Below, in pieces: positions 48,521-61,568 of a stretch of DNA of 64,000 nt. Position 1 is the stretch's first letter. Each line of letters starts with the position of its first letter. Source of the DNA: a virus; the IMG/VR virus record IMGVR_UViG_3300021976_000010, positions 1-64,000 of that record, one strand, 5' to 3'. The translations under genes were made by a program, and so were the position numbers. The notes below the pieces were generated by a model. It had not been told where the DNA came from, searched no databases, and saw only the letters and a list, made by a program, of their open reading frames with translations.

Positions 48521-48671
48521 CTGCTCAAAGTGCGACGCTCTCATGGAGCAGCAAGAGGACGACCCATCAGTCGGTATCACTGGCTGCTGGACATGTACCA
48601 ACTGTGACCACGTCGAGCCTCTCGAGGACGACGATCACTATCTCGACGATTGCTCAAGGGAGGACAGGTGA
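48510..48671 (+). CDS. Small zinc-ribbon-like protein, 53 aa
   Basis: ATG 48510 overlaps the preceding gene by 11 bases, and its stop overlaps the hypermodification gene (TGATG). CSKCDALM (C5, C8) and CWTCTNCDHVE (C26, C29, C32) form a two-knuckle zinc ribbon, followed by an acidic tail. It is next to the base-modification genes, so it could be a partner or DNA-binding adaptor. Confidence 0.65.
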   Translation: MPRNCSKCDALMEQQEDDPSVGITGCWTCTNCDHVEPLEDDDHYLDDCSREDR

Positions 48672-49663
48672 TGTCTAGACGAGTTACCAAGGCACAGCAG
48701 AAGGGACTCGACGCGTTCTTCGAGTACGCGCGCAAGCGTCATCTGTGCTATATCATGAAGAACGCAGACCCAAGCTGGAAGATCGACGACGATATTCTCA
48801 GTCACTTCAGTTTCTGCAACGTGTTTCGCGAGCTCGACAAGACCACCATCTGGTTTGCCGAGAACGTGCGCAAGCCGCTCGACAAGGAGAAGCACCCGGG
48901 CCTGATACTGGCCACGGTGCTGTTTCGCATGTTCAACCGGATCGAGACCGGCGAGGCCATGTTCTGCGATGATAATCTGCTTGGCGACGCCAGCGCGTTT
49001 CACGAGTTCTACGCGACCGGCAAGACCGCACCGCTGCGCAGGGCCATCATCAACCGGCTCGGCAAGAAGGGACCATATGTCACGGGCTCGTACATCATCG
49101 CAGGCCCGGGCGGCATGTCGAAGCTCGACGGCATGCTAAAGGTGGTCAAGGACTTCCATGACTCGACGGCCGAGTTAGACCTTGTCCAGTCCGACTGGAC
49201 ACTCGCCAACGAACGTATGGAGCTACACAAGTTCTCACTCCAGCAGGCGCATTCGTGGCTTCGTCAGTTCAGCTTCATGGGCACGTTCCACGCATACGAG
49301 ATAGTCACCGATCTGCGGTGGACACACCTGCTTCGCCGCGCCCCCGATATCCATTCGTGGGCGAATCCAGGCCCGGGGTGCAGGCGGGGGTTGAACGTGC
49401 TCATGGGTCGTGATAAGGACGCGCGGGAGTGGACAAACAACGATGAGCTGCTCAACGAGATGAACATAATTCTTGAGGAGTCGACGACGAAACGGCAATG
49501 GCAGGCGTTCGCCGGGCAGATGAATGCCAAGTATCCAAAGCTGAGTACACCATTCTCATGGGAAATGCGTGACGTCGAGCACACGCTATGCGAATTCGAC
49601 AAGTACGAGCGAACGCGGCACGGTGAGGGCAGGCCGCGCGGACGTTATCGGGGACACGAGTAG
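48671..49663 (+). CDS. DNA base hypermodification protein (5-hmdU kinase helical / aGPT-Pplase-like)
   Basis: ATG 48671 lies in a TGATG overlap. The 330-residue protein shows FFEYARKRHLCYIMKNADPS at 16-35, HFSFCNVFRELDKTTIWFAE at 45-64, VTDLRWTHLLRRAPDIHSWA at 212-231 and NPGPGCRRGLNVL at 232-244. SWEMRDVEHTLCEFDKYER at 296-314 and a GEGRPRGRYRG tail follow. I recall this set from the alpha-glutamyl/putrescinyl-thymine pyrophosphorylase and hmdU-kinase-helical families, distant DNA-glycosylase relatives that alter thymine derivatives within phage DNA. It would act on DNA already containing 5-hydroxymethyl-dU. The exact clade is uncertain. Confidence 0.85.
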   Translation: MSRRVTKAQQKGLDAFFEYARKRHLCYIMKNADPSWKIDDDILSHFSFCNVFRELDKTTIWFAENVRKPLDKEKHPGLILATVLFRMFNRIETGEAMFCDDNLLGDASAFHEFYATGKTAPLRRAIINRLGKKGPYVTGSYIIAGPGGMSKLDGMLKVVKDFHDSTAELDLVQSDWTLANERMELHKFSLQQAHSWLRQFSFMGTFHAYEIVTDLRWTHLLRRAPDIHSWANPGPGCRRGLNVLMGRDKDAREWTNNDELLNEMNIILEESTTKRQWQAFAGQMNAKYPKLSTPFSWEMRDVEHTLCEFDKYERTRHGEGRPRGRYRGHE

Positions 49664-49679
49664 CACAGGGAGTAGCGTC

Positions 49680-49748
49680 ATGAGTTTCTATGGAGCACTG
49701 TTCATGGGTGTAGTCGTGATACACGTGGCCGCGAGGTACATCGCATGA
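49680..49748 (+). CDS. 22-aa hydrophobic peptide
   Basis: CAGGGAG ten bases before ATG 49680 and an ATGA overlap with the next gene support translation. The peptide MSFYGALFMGVVVIHVAARY is almost all hydrophobic and could be a mini membrane protein. It is too short to call firmly. Confidence 0.35.
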   Translation: MSFYGALFMGVVVIHVAARYIA

Positions 49749-50047
49749 ACGACACGCATGACCCGACGAACGCCACGTTCTACGCGTTCAAGGGCTATAG
49801 CCTCAGCCGCAAATACTACACGCTCGGTCGAGGTCACCTATCGAAGACGGTGTTCGATCCGCGCACGCCTGACAGGCTCGCACAGATACTTCTCGACAAT
49901 GACAATTGCTGGCCCGGTCTGTCTGGTCCGGGTGAGAGTTTCTTTCGCATCGTAATAGGTGACGAGTCTATCGACCATGGGTATCCACTCATGTTCGACC
50001 CTTCACACGGAATGGTGTTTAACACCGAGTCAACCAAGGAGAAGTGA
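49745..50047 (+). CDS. Hypothetical protein, 100 aa
   Basis: ATG 49745 is in an ATGA overlap. The protein is polar and mixed alpha/beta (YSLSRKYYTLGRGHLSKTVF; LAQILLDNDNCWPGLSGPGE). It lies between the hypermodification protein and the glycosyltransferases. It does not match a known family. The next start is three bases downstream. Confidence 0.7.
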   Translation: MNDTHDPTNATFYAFKGYSLSRKYYTLGRGHLSKTVFDPRTPDRLAQILLDNDNCWPGLSGPGESFFRIVIGDESIDHGYPLMFDPSHGMVFNTESTKEK

Positions 50048-50049
50048 CC

Positions 50050-50895
50050 ATGCTGCCCATTTTCATACCGAGCATGGACAGGGCGGGTGCCCTGTTCGGC
50101 AAGATTTCCACGCTCACGCAGATCAAGAAGGTGAAGAATGACGTTCACCTCGTCGTGCCACCGGATCAGGCCACGCGCTACCGCAACGCGCTGTTCAACG
50201 CGGGTCGCGAGGACGTCGTGGTTCTCGAGTGTCCCGAGAAGGGCATCGCCAAGACGCGGCACTGGATCGGCATGCTGTGCAAGAAAAAGAAGTGGGACAA
50301 GTTCGCGATGTTCGACGACGATCTCAACTTCGCGGTGCGCAAGGACACCACTGGCAACGGGCTGCGCATTCAGGAGAACAAGGACGTCGTCGAGATGCTG
50401 GCGTGGATCGACAAGGCGCTCGACAAGTATGCGCATGTCGGCATATCGCCGCGTGATGCGGCCAAGACCGAGAGTGTTCAGACCGGTGACAGGCCGCTCA
50501 TCCTGCTGAACAAGCGCACGCTGCGAACACTGTGCTACCGCACGGATGATTTCCTGTCGGTGAAGCACGGGCGCGTCGACGTCATGGAAGACTTCGACGT
50601 GAATCTGCAACTCATCGAGAAGGGACTGTGGAATGCTCAGACGTACTGGTGGACCAACGACCAGCGCCAGACGGGCAGCCCGGGCGGGTGTGCCAGCTAT
50701 CGCAGTCACGAGGTTCACGAGGCCAGCGCCCGCAAACTGGCCGAGCTGCACGCGCCATTCGTCACGTTGCGCGAGAAGGTCAACAAGGCTCAGGTCGTTA
50801 AGTCCGCAGAGGCATTTCAGAAGCGCACCGAGGTCACCATCTACTGGGAAAAGTGCGCGATGAATGCGGGCTGGAAGAAGGGAGCGGCGAAGTGA
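50050..50895 (+). CDS. TET-associated-type glycosyltransferase (TAGT-like), 281 aa
   Basis: GGAG at 50038-50041 favours ATG 50050 over GTG 50044. The GT-A fold starts MLPIFIPSMDRAG and has VHLVVPPDQATRYRNA at 32-47, KGIAKTRHWIGMLC at 64-77 and FAMFDDDLNFAVR at 85-97, with D89-D91 as the metal-binding acidic cluster. This order matches TET-associated glycosyltransferases, which attach sugars to hydroxymethylated bases in phage DNA. No TET oxygenase lies in the window; the hydroxymethyl group is more likely to come from the synthase homologue at 56183. Confidence 0.8.
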   Translation: MLPIFIPSMDRAGALFGKISTLTQIKKVKNDVHLVVPPDQATRYRNALFNAGREDVVVLECPEKGIAKTRHWIGMLCKKKKWDKFAMFDDDLNFAVRKDTTGNGLRIQENKDVVEMLAWIDKALDKYAHVGISPRDAAKTESVQTGDRPLILLNKRTLRTLCYRTDDFLSVKHGRVDVMEDFDVNLQLIEKGLWNAQTYWWTNDQRQTGSPGGCASYRSHEVHEASARKLAELHAPFVTLREKVNKAQVVKSAEAFQKRTEVTIYWEKCAMNAGWKKGAAK

Positions 50896-51911
50896 GCACC
50901 ATCGCACTGTTCTTCTTTCGACCGACGCTAGGCGGCGGCTCGACCACGTTCACGGCACACCTGTACGAAGCGTTGAAGGCGGTTGGCGAAGACCCCATCA
51001 TTCTGCGCGTCGGCAGGACGAGCAGCGGCAAGCGCAAGACGTTCGGCGAATATGCTGGCGTCGAGTACATGAAGGTGGACGTTGCCACGGCAAAGGAGTA
51101 TGTCAAGAGCATGCCCACGCTGATGACAGCGCCTATCGGGGCCAAGGACCTGCCCGAGCCGGATCTCATTCAGCAGCTCATCGCGTTGGGAATGCGGGTG
51201 GTCATCCACGACCCCAACGAGTTTGACATCTTCGACTATCTCGAGGGCGGCAAGTTCAAGTTCAAGAGGCCGCCGTTCTGCATACGACCGACGATGCACC
51301 GCTTCTACCCAGAGGCGGTGTTCATCCATCACCCGTACAAGCCGGTGACTGCTGACATGAGAATCCAGCGCTCGAAGCTGGCCTGCTCAACAGCCCGCAT
51401 CGCGTCGGTGAAGCGGTCGCGAATGCTGCTCGACGCGAACATGGAGGTGCCCAAGGTGCGTCGCATCGAGCTTCGCGGTGCGGAGTACAGGATGTACACC
51501 TACAATCTCATGAAGAAGTATCCACCGGAAATCTTCAAGCAGTCCGGCGGTGAGTTCCAGTTTCCAAAGTCATTCGAGGCACCTGTGCTCGTGGCCGCGG
51601 AATACGAACTCAACTTCGACATGACGCGCTTCCCTGACGACGGCGGCGGAACGCAGTACGCTCAGATGGAGGCGATGAACGCGGGCACCGTCAACGTCAT
51701 GCACGAAGATTGGTGGCGATTCGGCAAGGGCGAGATGGTCCCGGGCAAGCATGTCTTGACGGTCGATGGAATTTCTGCTATCATCGCTCTGCTGAAGAAC
51801 CCACCGTCCAACCATAGGCGCGACGAAATCAACGCCAACTGCGCCACGCTGCTCAAGCGACACGCGCCGAAGCTCATCGGCGGTGCATACCTACAGGAGT
51901 TGAAGCGATGA
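50892..51911 (+). CDS. GT-B glycosyltransferase, paralogue 1, 339 aa
   Basis: GTG 50892 overlaps the preceding stop (GTGA). The N-terminal lobe (IALFFFRPTLGGGSTTFTAH) has the glycine-rich GT-B donor loop, and VVIHDPNEFD marks a strand end. GGGTQYAQMEAMNAGTVNVM, then HEDWWRFGKGEMVPGKH near 255-300 is the GT4-like nucleotide-sugar site with its Glu in the QMEAMNAG helix. It is clearly paralogous to the next gene. It probably extends the sugar chain begun by the TAGT-like enzyme. Confidence 0.8.
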   Translation: MSTIALFFFRPTLGGGSTTFTAHLYEALKAVGEDPIILRVGRTSSGKRKTFGEYAGVEYMKVDVATAKEYVKSMPTLMTAPIGAKDLPEPDLIQQLIALGMRVVIHDPNEFDIFDYLEGGKFKFKRPPFCIRPTMHRFYPEAVFIHHPYKPVTADMRIQRSKLACSTARIASVKRSRMLLDANMEVPKVRRIELRGAEYRMYTYNLMKKYPPEIFKQSGGEFQFPKSFEAPVLVAAEYELNFDMTRFPDDGGGTQYAQMEAMNAGTVNVMHEDWWRFGKGEMVPGKHVLTVDGISAIIALLKNPPSNHRRDEINANCATLLKRHAPKLIGGAYLQELKR

Positions 51912-52882
51912 AAGAGGTCGCGCTGTTCTCGTGCAATTGGCCGGCTCAGTCAGGGCCTGCCACCTATACCGCCGAGCTGTATCGCGGGCTCAAGCTCGCT
52001 GGGTATACACCCGTCATCTATCGCGTGCGGGATCACGACGAGCAGAAGTTCCGCGCGTATGGTCACTATCGCGACGTCACGTACAAAATTGTGTCCCCCG
52101 CTTCTGCCTTCGGAATTATCAAGCGCATGCCATCGCTTCTCGTGTCGTCTTGCAATCCGAAGGACTTCAACAAGGAGGTTCTGCGCGAGATGCTCAAGCG
52201 GGGGATGCGCGTGGTGATACATGACCCACGCGAGGAGGAGAACTTTGCCTATGGGGTGCCCGAGCGGCCCATCATCATACGACCAGCGGTGAAGAAGCAC
52301 TTCAAGGACGCGGTGTTCATCCCGCACCCGTACACGCCGCGGAACGTGCAGAACGAGGGCAAGCATATCGCCACCTCCACTGCTCGCACCACGTTCATCA
52401 AGCGTACCACGATGATTCTCGAGGCTAATCGCGTTCTCAAGCGCGCGCGGCTTGGCACCGTACAGATCATGGGAGCCGAGAATCGCATGTACGTTCACCA
52501 CGTGCTGCGAGTCAAGTTTCCAGAGTACAAGTCGCCGCCGTTTCAGTGGTTCGACAAGGGAGCCGAGGTCGCCGCGCTAGGTCGCTTCAACGTCGACTTC
52601 ACGGGTGTGAAGGCGGACGGCGGTGGAACGCAGTACACAACGCTTGAGGCCTGGGATGCCGGCTCTATTCCCATCATCCATGAAGACTGGATGCGCTTCA
52701 AGGGCGAAATGGAGCCGGGCAAGAACTGCTATGCCGTGGACGGCGCGAAGGGCTTGGCGGAGTTGCTACAGCACGGCGAAAAGAAGTATAATGCAGCGAT
52801 GGTGAAGCGCGGGCGCGAGGGCCTCACCATTCACGACAGTCGCACCATAGCGCGTAGAACAATGAAAGAGGTCACACGATGA
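51908..52882 (+). CDS. GT-B glycosyltransferase, paralogue 2, 324 aa
   Basis: It begins MKEVALFSCNWPAQSGPATY and carries RVVIHDPREEENF and GGGTQYTTLEAWDAGSIPII, then HEDWMRFKGEMEPGKNCY, matching the same positions in paralogue 1. The shared GGGTQY...EA..AG......HEDW.RF pattern is not one I know from well-studied phages. The two may transfer different sugars or act as a pair. The start is in an ATGA overlap, as is the link to the radical SAM gene. Confidence 0.8.
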   Translation: MKEVALFSCNWPAQSGPATYTAELYRGLKLAGYTPVIYRVRDHDEQKFRAYGHYRDVTYKIVSPASAFGIIKRMPSLLVSSCNPKDFNKEVLREMLKRGMRVVIHDPREEENFAYGVPERPIIIRPAVKKHFKDAVFIPHPYTPRNVQNEGKHIATSTARTTFIKRTTMILEANRVLKRARLGTVQIMGAENRMYVHHVLRVKFPEYKSPPFQWFDKGAEVAALGRFNVDFTGVKADGGGTQYTTLEAWDAGSIPIIHEDWMRFKGEMEPGKNCYAVDGAKGLAELLQHGEKKYNAAMVKRGREGLTIHDSRTIARRTMKEVTR

Positions 52883-53916
52883 AGTATCCAAGGCAAGAGC
52901 CGCCGAACGCGGTGCAGATCGAGCTCGTCGAGGGCTGCAATCTGCGCTGCGCAGTGTGCGGGCTGAACGGCATTCGTGGCAAGGCCAACGACTACAAGGC
53001 CATGGAAACCGCCACGCTCAAGTCCGCTATCGAGCAGATGGTTGCGCTCGACTGGAATCCACGCATCGAGTTTGCCATGCACGGCGAGCCCTCGATGCAC
53101 CCGGATTTCAACGCGATGGTAAGAGTCGCGCGCGAGGTGGGTCCGCGCTTCCAGATCATGATGACATCGAACGGCGGCGGCTTCTTGAGTAAGCCCGGGC
53201 CGCTCGCAAAGGTGAGGGGCTTCTTCGAGGCCGGGGGCAACGTGCTTGCGTTCGACGACTATGAGAACGCCAATCTCGTACCAAAGATTCGCAAGGCACT
53301 GGAGCCCTACACGGAACAGGCGATAGACTCGGCCTGCGCCGCGATACTCTCGTTCAAGGGTGGTCCGGCTGTTGATGTCTACGAATATCCACAGATGAGG
53401 GAGGGTAATCCTCACACGCGCGGCCACGTGAGCGAGAGTAGGCTCGTGTTCATCCAAGACCTGATCACCGCCAGCAAGGGCACACATTCCCACGTGAACA
53501 ATCACGCGGGCGCGGGCGGGCCGCCGAACGAGAAGGGGCAGGGCAAGCGGTGTGCGAAACCGTTCCGAGAGCTGAGCATTCGCTGGGACGGCAACGTCGC
53601 GGTGTGCTGCAACGATTGGCGCGGCATCTACCAGTGCGGCAACGTAGTCAAGGACGGGCTCGACGCGGTGTGGAACGGCAGGGCCATGGGTGCAGCGCGC
53701 GTGAAACTGTATCACCGCGAACGCGACTTCGGCCCGTGCGAGGGCTGCGACGCGCTCAGCACGCGAGTTGGCCTGCTTCCCGACAAGCTGGGGAAAGAGG
53801 AAATGCCGAAGCCTGACGCTGGCGTCAAGCGCGATATCGCGGCGGCCTTGGCCAAGGGGCCGTTCACCAAACCCGTGCTCCGACCGTGGGAGGTGACCAG
53901 TGGTAAATCGAAGTGA
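52879..53916 (+). CDS. Radical SAM/SPASM enzyme, 345 aa
   Basis: The radical SAM cluster motif is C20-x3-C24-x2-C27 (EGCNLRCAVCG). GEPSMHP follows the second strand, as in typical radical SAM barrels. The C-terminal SPASM-like region has C225, C243/C244, C253, C287 and C290 (RCAKPFRELSIRWDGNVAVC, then GPCEGCD) to hold a second iron-sulfur cluster. It would perform radical chemistry on a sugar, nucleotide or attached side chain. Radical SAM isomerases occur in known thymidine hypermodification pathways. Confidence 0.9.
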   Translation: MKYPRQEPPNAVQIELVEGCNLRCAVCGLNGIRGKANDYKAMETATLKSAIEQMVALDWNPRIEFAMHGEPSMHPDFNAMVRVAREVGPRFQIMMTSNGGGFLSKPGPLAKVRGFFEAGGNVLAFDDYENANLVPKIRKALEPYTEQAIDSACAAILSFKGGPAVDVYEYPQMREGNPHTRGHVSESRLVFIQDLITASKGTHSHVNNHAGAGGPPNEKGQGKRCAKPFRELSIRWDGNVAVCCNDWRGIYQCGNVVKDGLDAVWNGRAMGAARVKLYHRERDFGPCEGCDALSTRVGLLPDKLGKEEMPKPDAGVKRDIAAALAKGPFTKPVLRPWEVTSGKSK

Positions 53917-54256
53917 GACCAGCGATACCCGAGTGGTCTACGGGTTCTTCTGCTCGTGGTGGGGCGGCATCGAGGAGATTGGCAGGCACCACACTGCCAA
54001 GGAGGGAGATCCACACCCGCTGCCCGGGTGTCCGCACTGTCGCAACGGATTGTTGCAAGTGGACAGCGCCGAGGTGTGGTGGACCGGCGTCGAGAAGGTG
54101 AACGCTAAAACACCGGGCTACAAGGACTTCATCTCGTGGCTCAAGGGCAAGTGCTACCGCGACGAGGGCGGCGTGTCTGGCTTCAGACGCGCGCTCGCCG
54201 CGTATAACGAGAATGAGGCCAATCGGCCCGGTCGCGTGAAGGTGGTGCTGCCATGA
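53900..54256 (+). CDS. Hypothetical protein, 118 aa
   Basis: GTG 53900 overlaps the radical SAM gene by 17 bases. The N-terminal half has aromatic and cysteine residues (VVYGFFCSWWGGIEEIGRHH; LPGCPHCRNGLLQVDSAEVW), including CPHC, so a zinc site is possible. The C-terminus is helical. It is coupled to the next gene. Unknown role in or next to the modification pathway. Confidence 0.7.
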   Translation: MVNRSETSDTRVVYGFFCSWWGGIEEIGRHHTAKEGDPHPLPGCPHCRNGLLQVDSAEVWWTGVEKVNAKTPGYKDFISWLKGKCYRDEGGVSGFRRALAAYNENEANRPGRVKVVLP

Positions 54257-54507
54257 GTATGAGCTTCTACGAGGGCAAGGTCGTCGAGTTCATGTACATC
54301 AACCATCGCGGCGTCGAGGAGATTCGTCGCGTGGTGCCGCGCTACATATTCCACGGGAACTCCAAGTGGCACCCGATGGAGCCGAAGCAGTGGTTTCTCG
54401 TGGCAACCTGCCTCGACCGGCAGGCTGACCGGCACTTCAAGTTCTCGGCCGACAACATGAAGGGCTGGGATATCAGCGAAGATCAGACCCTGCCGTGGAG
54501 GGCGTGA
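54253..54507 (+). CDS. Small WYL-like domain protein, 84 aa
   Basis: The start is in an ATGA overlap. The sequence VVEFMYINHRGVEEIRRVVP, then PKQWFLVATCLDRQADRHFK and FSADNMKGWDI follows the strand order of WYL domains (IxFxYxNxxGxxxxRxVxP...W.L.A...D....R.F.ldnI..w). WYL domains bind ligands or nucleic acids and often regulate defence systems; a stand-alone copy in a phage could sense a nucleotide ligand. Confidence 0.6.
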   Translation: MSMSFYEGKVVEFMYINHRGVEEIRRVVPRYIFHGNSKWHPMEPKQWFLVATCLDRQADRHFKFSADNMKGWDISEDQTLPWRA

Positions 54508-54770
54508 TGAATGGCAAAGAAGGTAGTCGCAAAGAAGAAATCCGCAGTGTCGGCAAAGAAGGCCGCCCCAAAGGCCGCCACATCACGCTCTGGGTCCTCG
54601 ACGACCCAGTCACGACCTACACCACGAGCAGCCGCGTCCTCGCCGGAAAAGATATCTACGAAGAGTTTATCCGCCGAAACAATGAGCACGTGGCACAAGA
54701 GCGTCGCGCGCGCAGCCGGGCAAATCTCCTTGACACTGTCTCGGCGGCGTCGCTCCGCAACATTCGTTGA
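54507..54770 (+). CDS. Overlapping-frame ORF A, 87 aa
   Basis: ATG 54507 overlaps the WYL-like stop, five bases after GGAGG. Its centre has mostly C or G at third codon positions and a normal protein look (GRHITLWVLDDPVTTYTTSS; AGKDIYEEFIRRNNEHVAQE). That is the better coding signature for the region 54580-54770. The other frame overlaps almost completely, so only one may be the main product, or both are made. Confidence 0.5.
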   Translation: MNGKEGSRKEEIRSVGKEGRPKGRHITLWVLDDPVTTYTTSSRVLAGKDIYEEFIRRNNEHVAQERRARSRANLLDTVSAASLRNIR

Positions 54771-54828
54771 TGATCTGCTGGAGCTGCTCGCTCCAGTAGT
54801 GGAAGAAATGCGCACGTATCAACAATAG
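54511..54828 (+). CDS. Overlapping-frame ORF B, lysine/alanine-rich, 105 aa
   Basis: ATG 54511 stands nine bases after GGAGG, a better spacing than ORF A. The N-terminus is MAKKVVAKKKSAVSAKKAAP, the kind of basic tail seen in phage histone-like proteins, and the last 20 residues (FVDDLLELLAPVVEEMRTYQ) form a helix. The serine/threonine-rich middle and weaker third-position GC argue that the middle is shaped by ORF A. Confidence 0.45.
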   Translation: MAKKVVAKKKSAVSAKKAAPKAATSRSGSSTTQSRPTPRAAASSPEKISTKSLSAETMSTWHKSVARAAGQISLTLSRRRRSATFVDDLLELLAPVVEEMRTYQQ

Positions 54829-54838
54829 GGAGGCCATC

Positions 54839-55072
54839 ATGGCTGGAAGCTACGGACATGTTACGAACGCTGACGGAACCTATCGCGGAGTTGCTCTGCT
54901 CGAGAACATGGGCGACATGCACGAGGCGGTCGAGGAGATGTGGTTCATGATCCATAACCTCGCTGGCGGCGATCAGACGAAGATCAAGGCAGCGAGCGAC
55001 GCATATTTCATGTGTCTGCGCGGGGAGACGCCTTGGCCGGTAGCCATGTTGGAGACGAAGAGCAATGAGTAA
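54839..55072 (+). CDS. Hypothetical protein, 77 aa
   Basis: AGGGAGG precedes ATG 54839. The sequence GSYGHVTNADGTYRGVALLE, then NMGDMHEAVEEMWFMIHNLA and GDQTKIKAASDAYFMCLRGE is a compact helical protein that I have seen as a conserved small phage hypothetical. Function unknown. It overlaps the next gene by eight bases. Confidence 0.7.
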   Translation: MAGSYGHVTNADGTYRGVALLENMGDMHEAVEEMWFMIHNLAGGDQTKIKAASDAYFMCLRGETPWPVAMLETKSNE

Positions 55073-55325
55073 CATCGGGCTCACCGAGTGGGAAGTCGAA
55101 GAGATACGCAGGGAGGCGGCGGCAAGCGAAATGAACATCATCACGATCTACCTCAAGGGAAACTACGCGCGGCTCGGGCCGCATAGTGGTGCAGACTGGG
55201 ACAGGGGCTATCTCGCCAACGAGACCAACGTCGCTGTCACAATAGCCGACAACGAGTACGGGCTCAATCAACGATGCTACATGCGCAACGACATCGCACG
55301 AATCGAGCACACCGGGCACTGGTGA
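55065..55325 (+). CDS. Hypothetical protein, 86 aa
   Basis: ATG 55065 overlaps the preceding gene. A helical start (LTEWEVEEIRREAAASEMNI) leads to a beta-rich part (IITIYLKGNYARLGPHSGAD) and ends IARIEHTGHW. It precedes a 105-base gap that holds a DnaA-box-like pair. No family. Confidence 0.65.
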   Translation: MSNIGLTEWEVEEIRREAAASEMNIITIYLKGNYARLGPHSGADWDRGYLANETNVAVTIADNEYGLNQRCYMRNDIARIEHTGHW

Positions 55326-55338
55326 CGCTCGCAGTCGG

Positions 55339-55357
55339 TTATACAAAGTTATACACA
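55339..55357 (+). promoter_or_regulatory. Tandem DnaA-box-like sites in a small intergenic gap
   Basis: TTATACAAA (55339-55347) and TTATACACA (55349-55357) lie in direct repeat with a one-base gap; the second matches TTWTNCACA exactly. They are followed by GGGGCTTGTTCTGG (55367-55380), also seen at 40528-40541. A promoter or replication element may start a sub-operon at the UDG-like gene. Confidence 0.45.
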
Positions 55358-55430
55358 GGCGCGCACCGGGGCTTGTTCTGGTGCGGCCTGTGCGGGAGAA
55401 TAGGGCTTCACAAGCGAACAGGGTATATCC

Positions 55431-55877
55431 ATGCGTCCAGTATTGATTGGGATGAACAATCCAGTGAGCAGCGAGCCGGAGCACGCGCTGTTCCCGTATC
55501 CAGAGGGCTGCACCGGGCACCGTCTTCTAGCGATGCTTCAATCGCGCGTTCCGAAGGCCACTCGTCGCGAGTATTGCGCGCGGTTCGACCGGCGCAACGT
55601 GGTCAGCGCCAAGGTGTTCGACAGCAAGATGGCGCAGAAAGGAGCGGCAGACCTGTTCAATGAGTTCTTCGGCTCTGGACGCACGGTCGTTCTGCTCGGG
55701 GCTGACACCGTGGCGGCATTCGGCATCCCCCGGCTGCTGATTCACCCGCAGATGATCGGGGGAGCCACGTATCGGCAGATACCACACCCGAGCGGGCGCA
55801 ATCTTTGGTACAACGTTGACGAGAACAAGGTGCTCGTCTCAATGCTCTTGGAGGATCTCTACAATGGCGCAGTCTGA
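55431..55877 (+). CDS. Uracil-DNA-glycosylase-superfamily-like protein, 148 aa
   Basis: The N-terminus VLIGMNNPVSSEPEHALFPY has the GxNNP loop of MUG/TDG-type glycosylases. FPYPEGCTGHRLLAML, TVVLLGADTVAAFGIP and the final IPHPSGRNLWYN (the HPSGxN motif) complete the UDG-like core in a short protein. A true uracil glycosylase would be dangerous for a phage using dU-derived bases, so a modified-base function is possible. The missing insert helices and small size lower certainty. Confidence 0.6.
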   Translation: MRPVLIGMNNPVSSEPEHALFPYPEGCTGHRLLAMLQSRVPKATRREYCARFDRRNVVSAKVFDSKMAQKGAADLFNEFFGSGRTVVLLGADTVAAFGIPRLLIHPQMIGGATYRQIPHPSGRNLWYNVDENKVLVSMLLEDLYNGAV

Positions 55878-56196
55878 TGATGAATGTTCGTGCATCGGTG
55901 AACTGGAACAGCTCCATCTTGCTGACCAGTACGCCGAGCAGGTTGCCTGCGAATTCGTAGAGACTTTTGGTGGAGTGTGCCCATCGATGCTGGACTACGT
56001 GACCGAGAGAATCATTGCTCGACTCGTGCACGTGGCCGTCATGAATCGCGACGAGAACCTGATCGTCAGCGAGCGCAAGACGCTCGATGCGACAGCCGAC
56101 TATATCTTCAGGCTCAGCAAGACTGCACCGGCTACCCTGAAGATTATCATGGACGATGCAGCACGAAAAGGAGAACCGGCGAATGCGAGTAATTGA
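55864..56196 (+). CDS. Hypothetical protein, 110 aa
   Basis: ATG 55864 overlaps the UDG-like gene by 14 bases. It is an acidic helical protein (IGELEQLHLADQYAEQVACE; VTERIIARLVHVAVMNRDEN) with two cysteines near the start. It overlaps the synthase gene by 14 bases. Unknown; by position it could be part of the nucleotide pathway. Confidence 0.65.
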   Translation: MAQSDDECSCIGELEQLHLADQYAEQVACEFVETFGGVCPSMLDYVTERIIARLVHVAVMNRDENLIVSERKTLDATADYIFRLSKTAPATLKIIMDDAARKGEPANASN

Positions 56197-57265
56197 AGTC
56201 GAAGACGTGAACGAGGCGTACTGGCGAGGTATGAACATACTGCGCACGGATGGTATCGACGAGGACAGCCGCAACGGGCCGGTTCGCGTTATGCCTGAGC
56301 CGGTGACCACGGTGTACCGCAAGCCGCGTCAGCGCGTGCTTTTCGACATGAAGCGTGCGGCCAATCCGTTCTTCCACCTGTTCGAGTCGCTGTGGATGCT
56401 GGCCGGTCGTGACGACGTGGGAGCGTTGAACCGCTACATCACCGACTTCGGCACGCGCTTCGCCGAGTCCGACGGCACTGTTCACGGCGCATACGGGCAC
56501 CGCTGGCGCAAGGCGTTCGGCTTCGACCAGCTCGACGCCATCGTCGCGCGGTTGCGCGCCAATCCGCGAGACCGGCAATGTGTTCTGCAGATGTGGGACG
56601 CGCGGATGGAGGACGGTTCTGACGCTGGGACTGACTACTTTGGTGAGAACGATCTGCTCGGCGTCTGGAAGGACAGGCCGTGCAATACGCAGGTCTACTT
56701 CCGCGTTCGCGAGAATGCACCGGAGGAGAAATGGGCGGCGGGCGGCGCAGTGCCAGAGCCAGTACTCGACATGATGGTCACGTGTCGCAGCAACGACATT
56801 GTCTACGGTGCATACGGCGCGAACGCGGTGCACTTCAGTATCCTTCAGGAGTACATGGCAGGTCGCATCGGCGTGCGCGTCGGGAACATGGAACAGGTCT
56901 CGTTCAACTACCATGCCTATCACGACGTTCTCGCGCGCGTGGGGTGCCCCGCGTATCTCGAGACCTACACCGGGCATAAGCTGAAGGCGCTCCCGATCGG
57001 GAACGCCTGGGAAGCGTGGGACGCTGATCTCATGTATTTCATGTCGTGGCACAAGACCATGACCGAGACCGGCGTCACCGAGGCTGGCACATATATCAAC
57101 AAGTGGTTCAAGTTCACAGCTGAGCCGCTGTTCATTGCTCACTACAAGTGGAAGAGCGCCATGCACAAGGAGGCGAAGACAATGGCGCAGCTCATCGAGT
57201 CCGAAGACTGGCGCTTCGCGGCGCTCATGTGGTTCGAGACTCGTACGAATGCGAGGAGCCGATGA
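56183..57265 (+). CDS. Thymidylate-synthase-homologous dUMP methylase/hydroxymethylase, 360 aa
   Basis: GGAG at 56170-56173 stands nine bases before ATG 56183. The TS fold shows the catalytic C167 in KDRPCNTQVYF, RDRQCVLQMWDARM before it, CRSNDIVYGAYGANAVHFSI and GNMEQVSFNYHAY. N214 in YGAN aligns with the asparagine that makes TS choose dUMP; dCMP hydroxymethylases have aspartate there. So the product is probably 5-hydroxymethyl-dUMP (or dTMP). The 25-residue longer N-terminus and the insert at 145-160 are typical of phage members. It would feed the hypermodification pathway. Confidence 0.85.
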   Translation: MRVIEVEDVNEAYWRGMNILRTDGIDEDSRNGPVRVMPEPVTTVYRKPRQRVLFDMKRAANPFFHLFESLWMLAGRDDVGALNRYITDFGTRFAESDGTVHGAYGHRWRKAFGFDQLDAIVARLRANPRDRQCVLQMWDARMEDGSDAGTDYFGENDLLGVWKDRPCNTQVYFRVRENAPEEKWAAGGAVPEPVLDMMVTCRSNDIVYGAYGANAVHFSILQEYMAGRIGVRVGNMEQVSFNYHAYHDVLARVGCPAYLETYTGHKLKALPIGNAWEAWDADLMYFMSWHKTMTETGVTEAGTYINKWFKFTAEPLFIAHYKWKSAMHKEAKTMAQLIESEDWRFAALMWFETRTNARSR

Positions 57266-57834
57266 ATCTCGCGGAAGACCCACGCGCGGCGGGCGAGATC
57301 CGTCGCTATCACACATGGGCCGTGCACTCCGACCAGACTGTCGGGCTGCACACGTGGCAGATACTGCGCATTCTGCTGACGGTGTGGCCGAACTGCCCTC
57401 GCAACGTGATAGTGTACGGCATCATTCACGACGCCGGTGAGATGAGTGGTGACATTCAGTATCCATTCAAGATCCTGTTTCCTGAACTGCGAGCCGGCGC
57501 CGACAAGGCCGAGAATCACGTCCGCGACATGCAGAGAAAGGGCATCGGCGCACCACCAGAACCACACCCGCTGTCAGTCTTCGAGAAAGCGGTGTTCAAG
57601 TGCTGTGATAACCTCGACATGTGGGAATATGGCCTGCGCGAAATGAACATGGGCAACCTGTACGCCGGTATCATCGTCGAGCGAATGGCGGCGGCGGTTG
57701 CCGAGAACGTGTCGTCGATCAGCGGCATGTTCAACTCTAACAATCGTCAGGCCCTCCAGAATCCTGACGTCAACGCGAACATCCACAAGTACATGCAAAC
57801 CCGTTTGAAAATGGAGACTATCGATGGCAAGTGA
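57262..57834 (+). CDS. HD-domain nucleotidase (YfbR/HDDC2-like), 190 aa
   Basis: The start is in an ATGA overlap. The HD motif is complete: RRYHTWAVHSDQTVGLHTW (H30) and IIHDAGEMSGDIQYPFK (H56, D57, E60, D64), with a late CDNLDMWEYGL aspartate. YfbR-like enzymes dephosphorylate deoxynucleoside monophosphates. Phages that replace thymine often destroy host dTMP this way, so the enzyme is likely to lower the dTMP or another dNMP pool while the synthase homologue next door makes the replacement. Confidence 0.8.
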   Translation: MNLAEDPRAAGEIRRYHTWAVHSDQTVGLHTWQILRILLTVWPNCPRNVIVYGIIHDAGEMSGDIQYPFKILFPELRAGADKAENHVRDMQRKGIGAPPEPHPLSVFEKAVFKCCDNLDMWEYGLREMNMGNLYAGIIVERMAAAVAENVSSISGMFNSNNRQALQNPDVNANIHKYMQTRLKMETIDGK

Positions 57835-59257: not shown

Positions 59258-59439
59258 CACAGGTCATATTCGCATGGCTCTACTACGGCACGGCGGTCTT
59301 TTTCCTGCTCGTCGTGCCGTACTTCGTCTATGAAAAGAACGGGAGCCAGACAGCGGCCTTGCTCTCGTTCTTTGTTGTTCTTCTGATATCGCTGCAATAC
59401 TATCAAGCACTGAGAAAGTTGATATGGTCAAGTCTGTAA
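59254..59439 (+). CDS. Small two-helix membrane protein, 61 aa
   Basis: GTG 59254 overlaps the preceding stop (GTGA). Helices at about 3-24 (VIFAWLYYGTAVFFLLVVPY) and 34-52 (ALLSFFVVLLISLQYYQ) are linked by a short polar turn. The end overlaps the polymerase gene by 16 bases. Function unknown. Confidence 0.6.
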   Translation: MTQVIFAWLYYGTAVFFLLVVPYFVYEKNGSQTAALLSFFVVLLISLQYYQALRKLIWSSL

Positions 59440-61568
59440 AACCGCGGCGACAGGTGATGAACCCGGATCAGATACCACTCATCACACCAGACAGCGCGTG
59501 GACGGTGCCGACGGAGCTCCCGGATCTCAGTCGCATCGACGCCATCGCCATTGACACTGAGGACTACGATCAAGGGCTGCTCGATGGGCGCGGCCCGGGC
59601 TGGGCATTCAAGTCCAAGTCTTCCGGGGGCTACTTGGCAGGCGTGAGCGCGGCGTGGTGGCAGGATGGCGAGGTGCGCAGCATCTATGTTCCCATCAACC
59701 ACCCTGATACCAACTGCATCGATCTATCACGGGCGAAGAAGTGGGTCGCGCATCTACTGAACCGCAAGAAGGGACAGCGAGCTATCTTCTGCAATGCCGA
59801 CTTTGATCTTGGCTGGATCGAGAATTCAATCAGCGGCCTTGGCATCGCACTTCCCGACGGCGAATTCATCGACGATGTCGGTGCGCAGGCCATGCTCATC
59901 GACGAGAATCGCAGGGCCAAGAAGGGGCAGACATCGGCCTATTCCCTCGACGCGATCGCTGAATGGTGCGGCGTCGAGATGAAGGACGAAGTGGCGCTTC
60001 GCGAGGCCGCCGCCGCGTATGGATACAAGGGAAAGGATGTCAAGAGGTTCATCGCGAAGCTGCCCGCGCGCTACGTTGGTCCATACGCGGAACAGGACGC
60101 CCGCTCCACGCTGCTCGCGCACGAAGTAATGGTGCCAATCATCGATGAACAGGAACTCAACGACGCATACGACCTCGAGATGGGGCTCGTGCCAGTAGTA
60201 CACGCCATGCGGAAGCGTGGCATACGTGTCAACGAAGACCGGCTCTGGCAGCTTCACGATAACCTCATGGATCAGCACCAGAAAGCGTGCGACAAGATAT
60301 ACGACATCACGAAGATGCGTGTATCCATTGATGAAATCAGGCAGAAAGACTGGCTCATCAGGGTCTGTGATATGCACGGCATCACCGAGTATATCACTGG
60401 AGAAAACGCGCTCGGTGAGAACGAGACCGAGTTCACCAAGAACTGGATGCGCGCGTCGCAGCATCCGCTGCCCCGGGCAATCGCAGAGGCAAAGCAGTGT
60501 CACGAGGCCGCCACGAAGTTCGTGAAGACCTACCTCATCGACTCTATCGTGGACGGGCGCATCCACGCGAACATCAACCAGTTCAAGACGGAAGACGGCG
60601 GCACCAAGACGCACCGTTTCTCCTATTCCGATCCACCATTGCAGCAGATGCCGAGCCGGCCAGACCCTGTCGAGGGCTGGTTCATCACTGAATTCATCGC
60701 GGCGGCAATCCGCACCGCATTCGAGCCCGAGCCGGGGGAGCTATGGTTCGCCCCCGATTATTCGCAGCAGGAATACAGGCTCATCGTTCACTACGCATAT
60801 CTCATGGAATGTGCCAAGGCCGACGACGCCGTGCGAATGTATCTCGAGGACCCGAACACCGACTTCCACAATCTGGTGGTCGCTCTCACTGGCCTAACGC
60901 GGCGCAGGGCAAAGGACGTGAACTTCGCCAAGGCGTATGGAGCCGGCATTAAGAAGTTTGCGTTGATGACAGGAATGTCACTAGAAGAAGCCGAGAAGGT
61001 GATGGGGCAGTACGATAGGGAAATGCCGTTCGTCAAGGAGCTCAACGATATTTGCGATCGCAGCGCGGCCGAGCGTGGTTACATACGCATGATCGACAAG
61101 GCGCGTTCGCACTTCGACGAATGGGAGCCGCGTTGGTTGGACCGCTCCGAGCGTCAGCGTGGGTACGCCGAGTACTTCGCGATGAACCCGTGTCGCCACG
61201 AAGAAGCGCTCGAACGCTGCGAAACGAAGAATCACCCGTGGTTCAAGAAGGCACTGCGCCGCGCAGATACACGCAAGGCGATGAATCGTCTCATTCAGGG
61301 CAGTGCAGCGAGACAGACGAAGCGCGCGATGCTGTCGTGTTGGCGCGCGGGATATCTCGCGATGCTGCAAATGCACGATGAACTCGCATTCTCTCTGATG
61401 AAAGAGAAAGACGGAAAGATCATCGGTGAAATAATGCGCAACGCTATCAAGATCAGTGTGCCGATGCGCGTCGACGAAGAATATGGCGAGACTTGGGGAA
61501 CGGCAAAATACGCGTTCGCAGACGCGCGCAGGGCGGGCAAGGGTGCCGCGCCCGCGCTGGCGGCCTAG
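59424..61568 (+). CDS. Family A DNA polymerase with 3'-5' exonuclease domain, 714 aa
   Basis: The exonuclease domain has IAIDTEDYD (D44, E46), FCNADFDLGWI and EQDARSTLLA. The polymerase palm and fingers show motif A FAPDYSQQEYRLIVHY (D445), motif B RRRAKDVNFAKAYGAG and motif C LQMHDELAFS (D652). DYSQQEYR replaces the usual DYSQIELR, and phenylalanine is kept at the ddNTP-discriminating site. The length is typical of phage PolA. Modified-base phages often carry such enzymes. ATG 59424 is used; ATG 59457 is possible. Confidence 0.92.
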   Translation: MVKSVKPRRQVMNPDQIPLITPDSAWTVPTELPDLSRIDAIAIDTEDYDQGLLDGRGPGWAFKSKSSGGYLAGVSAAWWQDGEVRSIYVPINHPDTNCIDLSRAKKWVAHLLNRKKGQRAIFCNADFDLGWIENSISGLGIALPDGEFIDDVGAQAMLIDENRRAKKGQTSAYSLDAIAEWCGVEMKDEVALREAAAAYGYKGKDVKRFIAKLPARYVGPYAEQDARSTLLAHEVMVPIIDEQELNDAYDLEMGLVPVVHAMRKRGIRVNEDRLWQLHDNLMDQHQKACDKIYDITKMRVSIDEIRQKDWLIRVCDMHGITEYITGENALGENETEFTKNWMRASQHPLPRAIAEAKQCHEAATKFVKTYLIDSIVDGRIHANINQFKTEDGGTKTHRFSYSDPPLQQMPSRPDPVEGWFITEFIAAAIRTAFEPEPGELWFAPDYSQQEYRLIVHYAYLMECAKADDAVRMYLEDPNTDFHNLVVALTGLTRRRAKDVNFAKAYGAGIKKFALMTGMSLEEAEKVMGQYDREMPFVKELNDICDRSAAERGYIRMIDKARSHFDEWEPRWLDRSERQRGYAEYFAMNPCRHEEALERCETKNHPWFKKALRRADTRKAMNRLIQGSAARQTKRAMLSCWRAGYLAMLQMHDELAFSLMKEKDGKIIGEIMRNAIKISVPMRVDEEYGETWGTAKYAFADARRAGKGAAPALAA

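Follow-up and report, generated by a model that had tools for sequence, protein, structure and literature searches.

A candidate pathway for glycosylated hydroxymethyldeoxyuridine in phage DNA, with a possible radical sugar-editing step

In the thymidine hypermodification route of phages M6 and PaMx11, hydroxymethyldeoxyuridine (hmdU) is followed by a kinase step, an amino-acid transferase step and then the action of radical S-adenosylmethionine (SAM), pyridoxal phosphate (PLP) or flavin adenine dinucleotide (FAD) enzymes. In phage T6, an alpha-glucosyltransferase and then a TET-associated glycosyltransferase (TAGT) di-glucosylate hydroxymethylcytosine (hmC). Sugar-bearing thymine derivatives are described for SP-15 (PMC5977210) and YerA41 (PMC9023294), and within the accessible literature no pairing of a TAGT with a BtrN-like radical SAM enzyme is reported for either phage. 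The operon discussed here is a tightly packed + strand gene cluster at 48671-57834 of a 64,000-base window, bases 1-64000 of the 76,974-base IMG/VR virus record IMGVR_UViG_3300021976_000010, which comes from an uncultivated phage. It encodes a predicted dUMP-type hydroxymethylase, a TAGT, two GT-B glycosyltransferases (GTB1 and GTB2) and a radical SAM/SPASM enzyme, and we consider it likely that the DNA of this phage carries glycosylated hmdU. A first-pass annotation of the DNA had read these genes as an undescribed, multi-sugar thymine modification. The part of that reading that concerns glycosylated hmdU stands, with the TAGT, both GT-B enzymes and the radical SAM enzyme in place and with evidence at the population level; a sugar-bearing thymine as such has precedents in the two phages just named.

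A predicted hmdU core and its tailoring enzymes

The thymidylate synthase (TS) homologue matches PF00303 and has the catalytic Cys146, Asn177 and a PCN motif with Trp80 lost, which is the pattern of SPO1 gp29 and agrees with its earlier description as a dUMP-type enzyme. It is 39% identical to M6 gp58, and M6 DNA contains a 5hmdU-derived base (PMC6449724). On account of the dUMP-type residues, the likeness to gp58 and the base present in M6, the window phage is predicted to make hmdU. The protein that we call hel (PF18723) is 34% identical to M6 gp55 and, used as a query, retrieves M6/PAE1-type and PaMx11/Lucjan-type Pseudomonas phages. The HD protein had been called a nucleotidase, and it is akin to the HD protein gp59 of M6 (28% identity). 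The gene order hel, TS, HD, PolA is identical to that of M6, and because of this order and the hel matches, we regard the window phage as related to Mesyanzhinovviridae-type phages. At the DNA level, the 44-62 kb stretch matches no phage among 50,697 phage records, and in the same collection GTB1 and the radical SAM enzyme have no close relatives, with the exception of two weak radical SAM matches.

All three glycosyltransferases of the first-pass annotation were recovered. The TAGT scores 66.9 bits against a curated PF20691 cut-off of 27.5, matches PHROG 842 as well, and has an invariant DDD motif at residues 91-93. The GT-B enzymes are paralogues (38% identity). A search of the AlphaFold2 (AF2) model of GTB1 (pLDDT 87) with Foldseek against 350,542 PDB chains returned T4 DNA alpha-glucosyltransferase (AGT) in all of the top five places, in some cases complexed with DNA containing hydroxymethyluracil (HMU), with E-values of 6e-10 to 2e-9 and TM up to 0.67. 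Among viral structures in BFVD, two SP-15 glycosyltransferases fall within the ten best matches. His119 is invariant in the GTB1 family and Asp120 nearly so; the two residues resemble His114-Asp115 of AGT, with which they are paired in a low-confidence profile alignment. GTB2 retains the equivalent HD motif and matches PF13524 at E 0.024, while other members of its family reach 3e-7. In the scan for relatives, GTB1 alone as the query gave none and an alignment of two sequences succeeded.

The radical SAM enzyme scores 27.8 bits against Radical_SAM, slightly below the cut-off of 29.5, and a relative in locus L253 lies above it. Its assignment to the radical SAM/SPASM group is upheld by the SPASM match, the CX3CX2C motif and the auxiliary-cluster Cys residues. 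The closest solved relative of the family profile is BtrN (E 1.4e-21), with four auxiliary-cluster Cys aligned. Throughout the family CX3CX2C is invariant, and there is an additional conserved Cys244. We put the chance that this BtrN-like enzyme acts on a sugar at about even, and in that case the reaction would most likely be oxidation or epimerization of a ring hydroxyl.

Related loci and a portable tailoring module

Profiles built in this work were run over ~240 loci; because these loci were recruited by similarity, co-occurrence was counted within recruitment sets. Homologous cassettes are present in ~100 distinct loci, so chance co-occurrence is of no concern. The constant core across loci is hel plus the hydroxymethylase, and the tailoring genes vary around it: a kinase with the amino-acid transferase ADDT, a TAGT alone, a TAGT with the radical SAM enzyme, a glycosyltransferase family that we call GTw with the radical SAM enzyme, or a kinase with a further glycosyltransferase, GTc. 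In long-flank loci recruited by TAGT alone (n = 38), hel and the hydroxymethylase are present in 37/38, a kinase in 1/38 and ADDT in 0/38. A glycosyltransferase accompanies the radical SAM enzyme in 46 of the 52 loci recruited by the latter, and the radical SAM enzyme is found in each of the 10 core loci that bear GTw. The combination of TAGT, hel and hydroxymethylase, mostly without a kinase, is widespread in IMG/VR. The earlier impression of an unfamiliar combination is partly right: within the literature accessible to us, no hmdU core with a TAGT/GT-B/BtrN-like set is described, but the combination is not the oddity of one phage, and its module also occurs with TET.

Genes that might supply sugar donors are found in two loci. 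At L005:12068-14726, a GDP-mannose 4,6-dehydratase lies between two TAGT-like genes, which suggests that the phage makes a deoxysugar donor of its own, and a MobA-like nucleotidyltransferase adjoins the TAGTs of L020. Six loci (L003, L006, L007, L009, L033 and L188) have a kinase and the unannotated, GT-B-like GTc without ADDT; by analogy with the phosphoglucuronate of SP-15, these might place a phosphate-linked sugar on hmdU. GTc (family cl4) was considered as a distant ADDT and dropped for its GT-B-like motifs, and profile comparison found no link between GTc and GTw. In the marine loci L205-L244, hel and the hydroxymethylase occur with a class I methyltransferase-like gene (~26 loci) and with another GT-B (8 loci), in place of the kinase or TAGT.

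The hel protein is near-universal among the relatives. It is mostly helical, has no P-loop, and its AF2 model (pLDDT 92.9) retrieved nothing significant in a fold search (best E 0.66), in which PaMx11 glycinyltransferase gp46 ranked first and several helix-hairpin-helix DNA glycosylases were among the matches that followed. Because hel is found alike in kinase, TAGT and methyltransferase cassettes, it is probably a common DNA- or base-handling or targeting factor. The gene that had been labeled a base hypermodification protein is present as a PF18723 member, and probably not as the hypermodifying enzyme itself. This also suggests that PF18723 extends beyond what its name, 5-hmdU DNA kinase helical domain, conveys. 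Detectable homology between hel and ADDT was considered and dropped, as the profile comparison was weak (probability 35%) and the fold search merely suggestive.

A second genomic context bears on what the radical SAM enzyme might modify. Some of the records that contain radical SAM, GTw or TAGT family members have no hel; TET/JBP is present in 9/15 of these and in 0/35 of the hel-positive records searched (Fisher p about 2e-6, with records that are not fully independent). In most of the TET-bearing records, L059 and L253 for example, TET directly adjoins GTw or the radical SAM gene. In the L253 case, a prophage-like region of Actinomadura rayongensis (L253:7884-16551), terminase genes are accompanied by a BtrN-like radical SAM enzyme, a C5-methyltransferase, GTw and TET. 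As hydroxymethyl bases of two different origins are found with the module, the simplest substrate for it would be the glycosylated arm and not thymine or cytosine; the gene contexts thus point to the sugar rather than the pyrimidine. Our broader proposal, which we offer tentatively, is a portable DNA-glycan module in which TAGT or AGT-like glycosyltransferases and a BtrN-like radical SAM enzyme would serve either hmdU that a dUMP hydroxymethylase supplies (with hel) or hydroxymethyl bases generated by TET, and would yield a radical-oxidized or radical-epimerized sugar on a DNA base. We know of no radical SAM-tailored sugar in DNA.

Several observations weigh against these proposals. Other GT-B enzymes (MshA, HepE) score Foldseek E-values near those of AGT, and by sequence the link from GTB1 to AGT is absent, with no Pfam match and an insignificant hhalign result. 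The contigs behind the association counts were recruited by similarity and are in part fragmentary, and three radical SAM loci with hel and TS show no known glycosyltransferase. Trees of the radical SAM and GTw families each give a single TET clade, so the context switches are few, and the change of context would be rare and old.

Among the alternatives, the one that fares best, though we regard it as unlikely, keeps the glycosylated thymine and has the radical SAM enzyme target the base itself or the hydroxymethyl arm, in the way that the GlyT isomerase of M6 works on an amino-acid arm. The M6-type radical SAM enzyme is reported to work on an hmdU-derived arm (Lee et al. 2022), but it falls in another family with a separate profile (MrSAM). 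Further points against a base-arm reaction are that ADDT is present in 0/52 loci recruited by the radical SAM enzyme, that BtrN, to which the family profile is closest among solved structures, has a ring alcohol as its target, and that the module is also found in the TET context.

It is improbable, in our estimate, that the base is instead a glycosylated hmC of the T-even style and the TS homologue a dCMP hydroxymethylase. In favor of hmC, T-even members of the TAGT family act on glucosyl-hmC (PMC13216743), and the announcement of the cultured Brevibacterium phage LuckyBarnes (NC_047851) lists a predicted dCMP hydroxymethylase and two glycosyltransferases (PMC6588365). The LuckyBarnes genes in question (L248:9994-14009) are hel (gp38), two TAGTs (gp39 and gp40) and a hydroxymethylase (gp41) related to that of the window, and gp41 is dUMP-type by its residues. 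More generally, the position that discriminates dUMP from dCMP is Asn in all 182 hydroxymethylase family members; Asn177 and PCN occur in 182/182 and Trp80 in none, whereas E. coli ThyA has PCH and Trp80 and the T4 dCMP hydroxymethylase gp42 is without the Asn. The hel gene and the M6-like backbone also argue for glycosylated hmdU, and the nearest characterized relatives are hmdU phages.

Operon layout and enzymes that are absent

The genes are listed in Table 1. Four-base overlaps join TAGT to GTB1 (GTGA at 50892), GTB1 to GTB2 (51908-51911), GTB2 to the radical SAM gene (52879-52882), and the small open reading frame (ORF) at 53900 to the one at 54253. From these overlaps, TAGT, GTB1, GTB2 and the radical SAM enzyme very probably form one translational unit. 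The overlap with TAGT also favors 50892 over the annotated 50853 as the start of GTB1, which is probably the better placement. That the glycosyltransferases and radical SAM enzyme merely sit in a replication region and target a host surface glycan, virion protein or peptide is very unlikely: GT-B and SPASM enzymes are commonly found in surface-glycan and peptide pathways, and the GTB1 fold also matches GT-B enzymes that do not act on DNA, but the genes overlap with TAGT by four bases, recur near hel and the hydroxymethylase, and in hel-less phages stay beside TET, in one case also beside a C5-methyltransferase.

Table 1. Genes of the operon and the adjoining polymerase, in window coordinates
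Feature	Position	Strand	Evidence
hel, HMUDK_hel (PF18723) protein	48671..49663	+	PF18723 E 6e-41, 141 bits vs cut-off 25
Small ORF	49745..50047	+	No Pfam or PHROG match; no relatives, profile survey finds itself alone
TAGT, GT-A type glycosyltransferase	50044..50895	+	PF20691 E 3e-18; PHROG 842 E 2e-35
GTB1, GT-B glycosyltransferase	50892..51911 (annotated start 50853)	+	Fold resembles T4 DNA alpha-glucosyltransferase
GTB2, GTB1 paralogue	51908..52882	+	38% identity to GTB1
Radical SAM/SPASM enzyme, BtrN-like	52879..53916	+	SPASM E 3e-11
Coupled small ORF	53900..54256	+	Relatives in L004; no Pfam match
Coupled small ORF, WYL-domain similarity	54253..54507	+	PF13280 E 1.4e-5
Putative uracil-DNA glycosylase (UDG)-superfamily protein	55431..55877	+	GMNNP ... 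PHPSGxNxWYN; phrog_12275; PF03167 matches among relatives
Predicted dUMP-type hydroxymethylase, TS family	56156..57265	+	PF00303 E 3.5e-17
HD-domain nucleotidase-like protein	57148..57834	+	phrog_6047 E 1.6e-21; weak YfbR-like
Family A DNA polymerase	59424..61568	+	PF00476; neighborhood as in M6-type phages

Every major gene that had been assigned to the operon was found in its place, with the exception of a possible Nmad-like protein. This candidate was rejected, since a purpose-built Nmad5-type profile is silent in the window and the ORF at 53900-54256 has no Pfam match. The UDG-like protein, also part of the earlier gene list, has no Pfam match itself and is tentatively placed in the superfamily via its relatives, 10/21 of which match PF03167 (best E 5e-5); UDG-superfamily proteins recur in these cassettes. 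A small WYL-domain-like protein sits within the operon as well.

Absences were assessed over the full 76,974-base record, which may be incomplete. The kinA, kinB and ADDT profiles are silent in the window and at the right end, so that the record has no detectable 5-hmdU kinase or ADDT, and a copy of either concealed elsewhere in it was rejected as an explanation. PF18724 and PF18748 have no match in the record, in searches where no positive control matched for either. TET/JBP (PF12851) is missing from the record by a search that was positive in 9 other records, and the window has no C5-methyltransferase. The observation that neither a TET oxygenase nor a P-loop hmdU kinase is visible thus extends by profile search to the whole record.

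Proposed pathway and comparison with known systems

The gene families, their coupling, the specificity residues, the fold match and the association statistics are directly established, and from them we infer the substrate, how many sugars there are and which, the order of steps, the reaction of the radical SAM enzyme and what hel does. In the proposed pathway, the TS-family enzyme would convert dUMP to hmdUMP, the HD protein probably clears competing thymidine nucleotides, as its family suggests, and hmdU would be incorporated into DNA in place of some or all of the thymine. The first sugar would then be placed on the hydroxymethyl group in DNA, most likely by the AGT-like GTB1 or GTB2 and/or by TAGT, and TAGT would add a further sugar, in an order taken by analogy with T6. 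The BtrN-like radical SAM enzyme may then change the sugar, most likely by oxidizing or epimerizing a ring hydroxyl. The part played by hel is probably to select hmdU sites for, or present them to, whatever tailoring enzyme each phage has.

A 2026 study found that 288 of 753 glycosyltransferase-bearing phage genomes have a TAGT without an alpha- or beta-glucosyltransferase and left the role of the solitary TAGT open (PMC13216743). From our survey, many of the solitary TAGTs, a large group from the environment, are predicted to act on hmdU, and phages seem to pair a single tailoring module with either of two ways of making a hydroxymethyl base. Base J of kinetoplastids has the same chemistry, a glycosylated hmdU, and for this reason new glycosyltransferases for DNA, and a radical enzyme with possible sugar-editing activity on DNA, could be useful reagents; they may also be players in restriction and counter-defence.

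How the operon differs from described systems can be followed step by step. The dUMP hydroxymethylase, hel, the HD protein and PolA are arranged as in M6 and PaMx11, and the hel and TS proteins are homologous at the family level. However, those phages have a kinase, ADDT, and PLP or FAD enzymes, and the window is without these, has glycosyltransferases in place of the amino-acid transferase, and has a radical SAM family unrelated to that of M6. T6 offers the likeness of a GT-B enzyme paired with a TAGT, and T4 alpha-glucosyltransferase is nearest to the fold of GTB1, yet the window differs in its dUMP-type hydroxymethylase and its additional radical SAM enzyme, and no relation between GTB1 and AGT is detectable by sequence. 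In TET-dependent hypermodification by a C5-methyltransferase, TET and a glycosyltransferase, the radical SAM and GTw families discussed above adjoin TET, whereas the window lacks TET and the C5-methyltransferase and its hydroxymethylase would supply the base ahead of replication. SP-15 also has a sugar-bearing thymine, and its glycosyltransferases are among the nearest viral fold matches of GTB1, but it builds a dihydroxypentyl arm and phosphoglucuronate. Finally, BtrN, the 2-deoxy-scyllo-inosamine dehydrogenase that acts on an aminocyclitol, shares the radical SAM core and aligned auxiliary-cluster Cys residues with the window enzyme; identity is low, the window family has the extra conserved Cys244, and the likeness to a dehydrogenase is one read from sequence.

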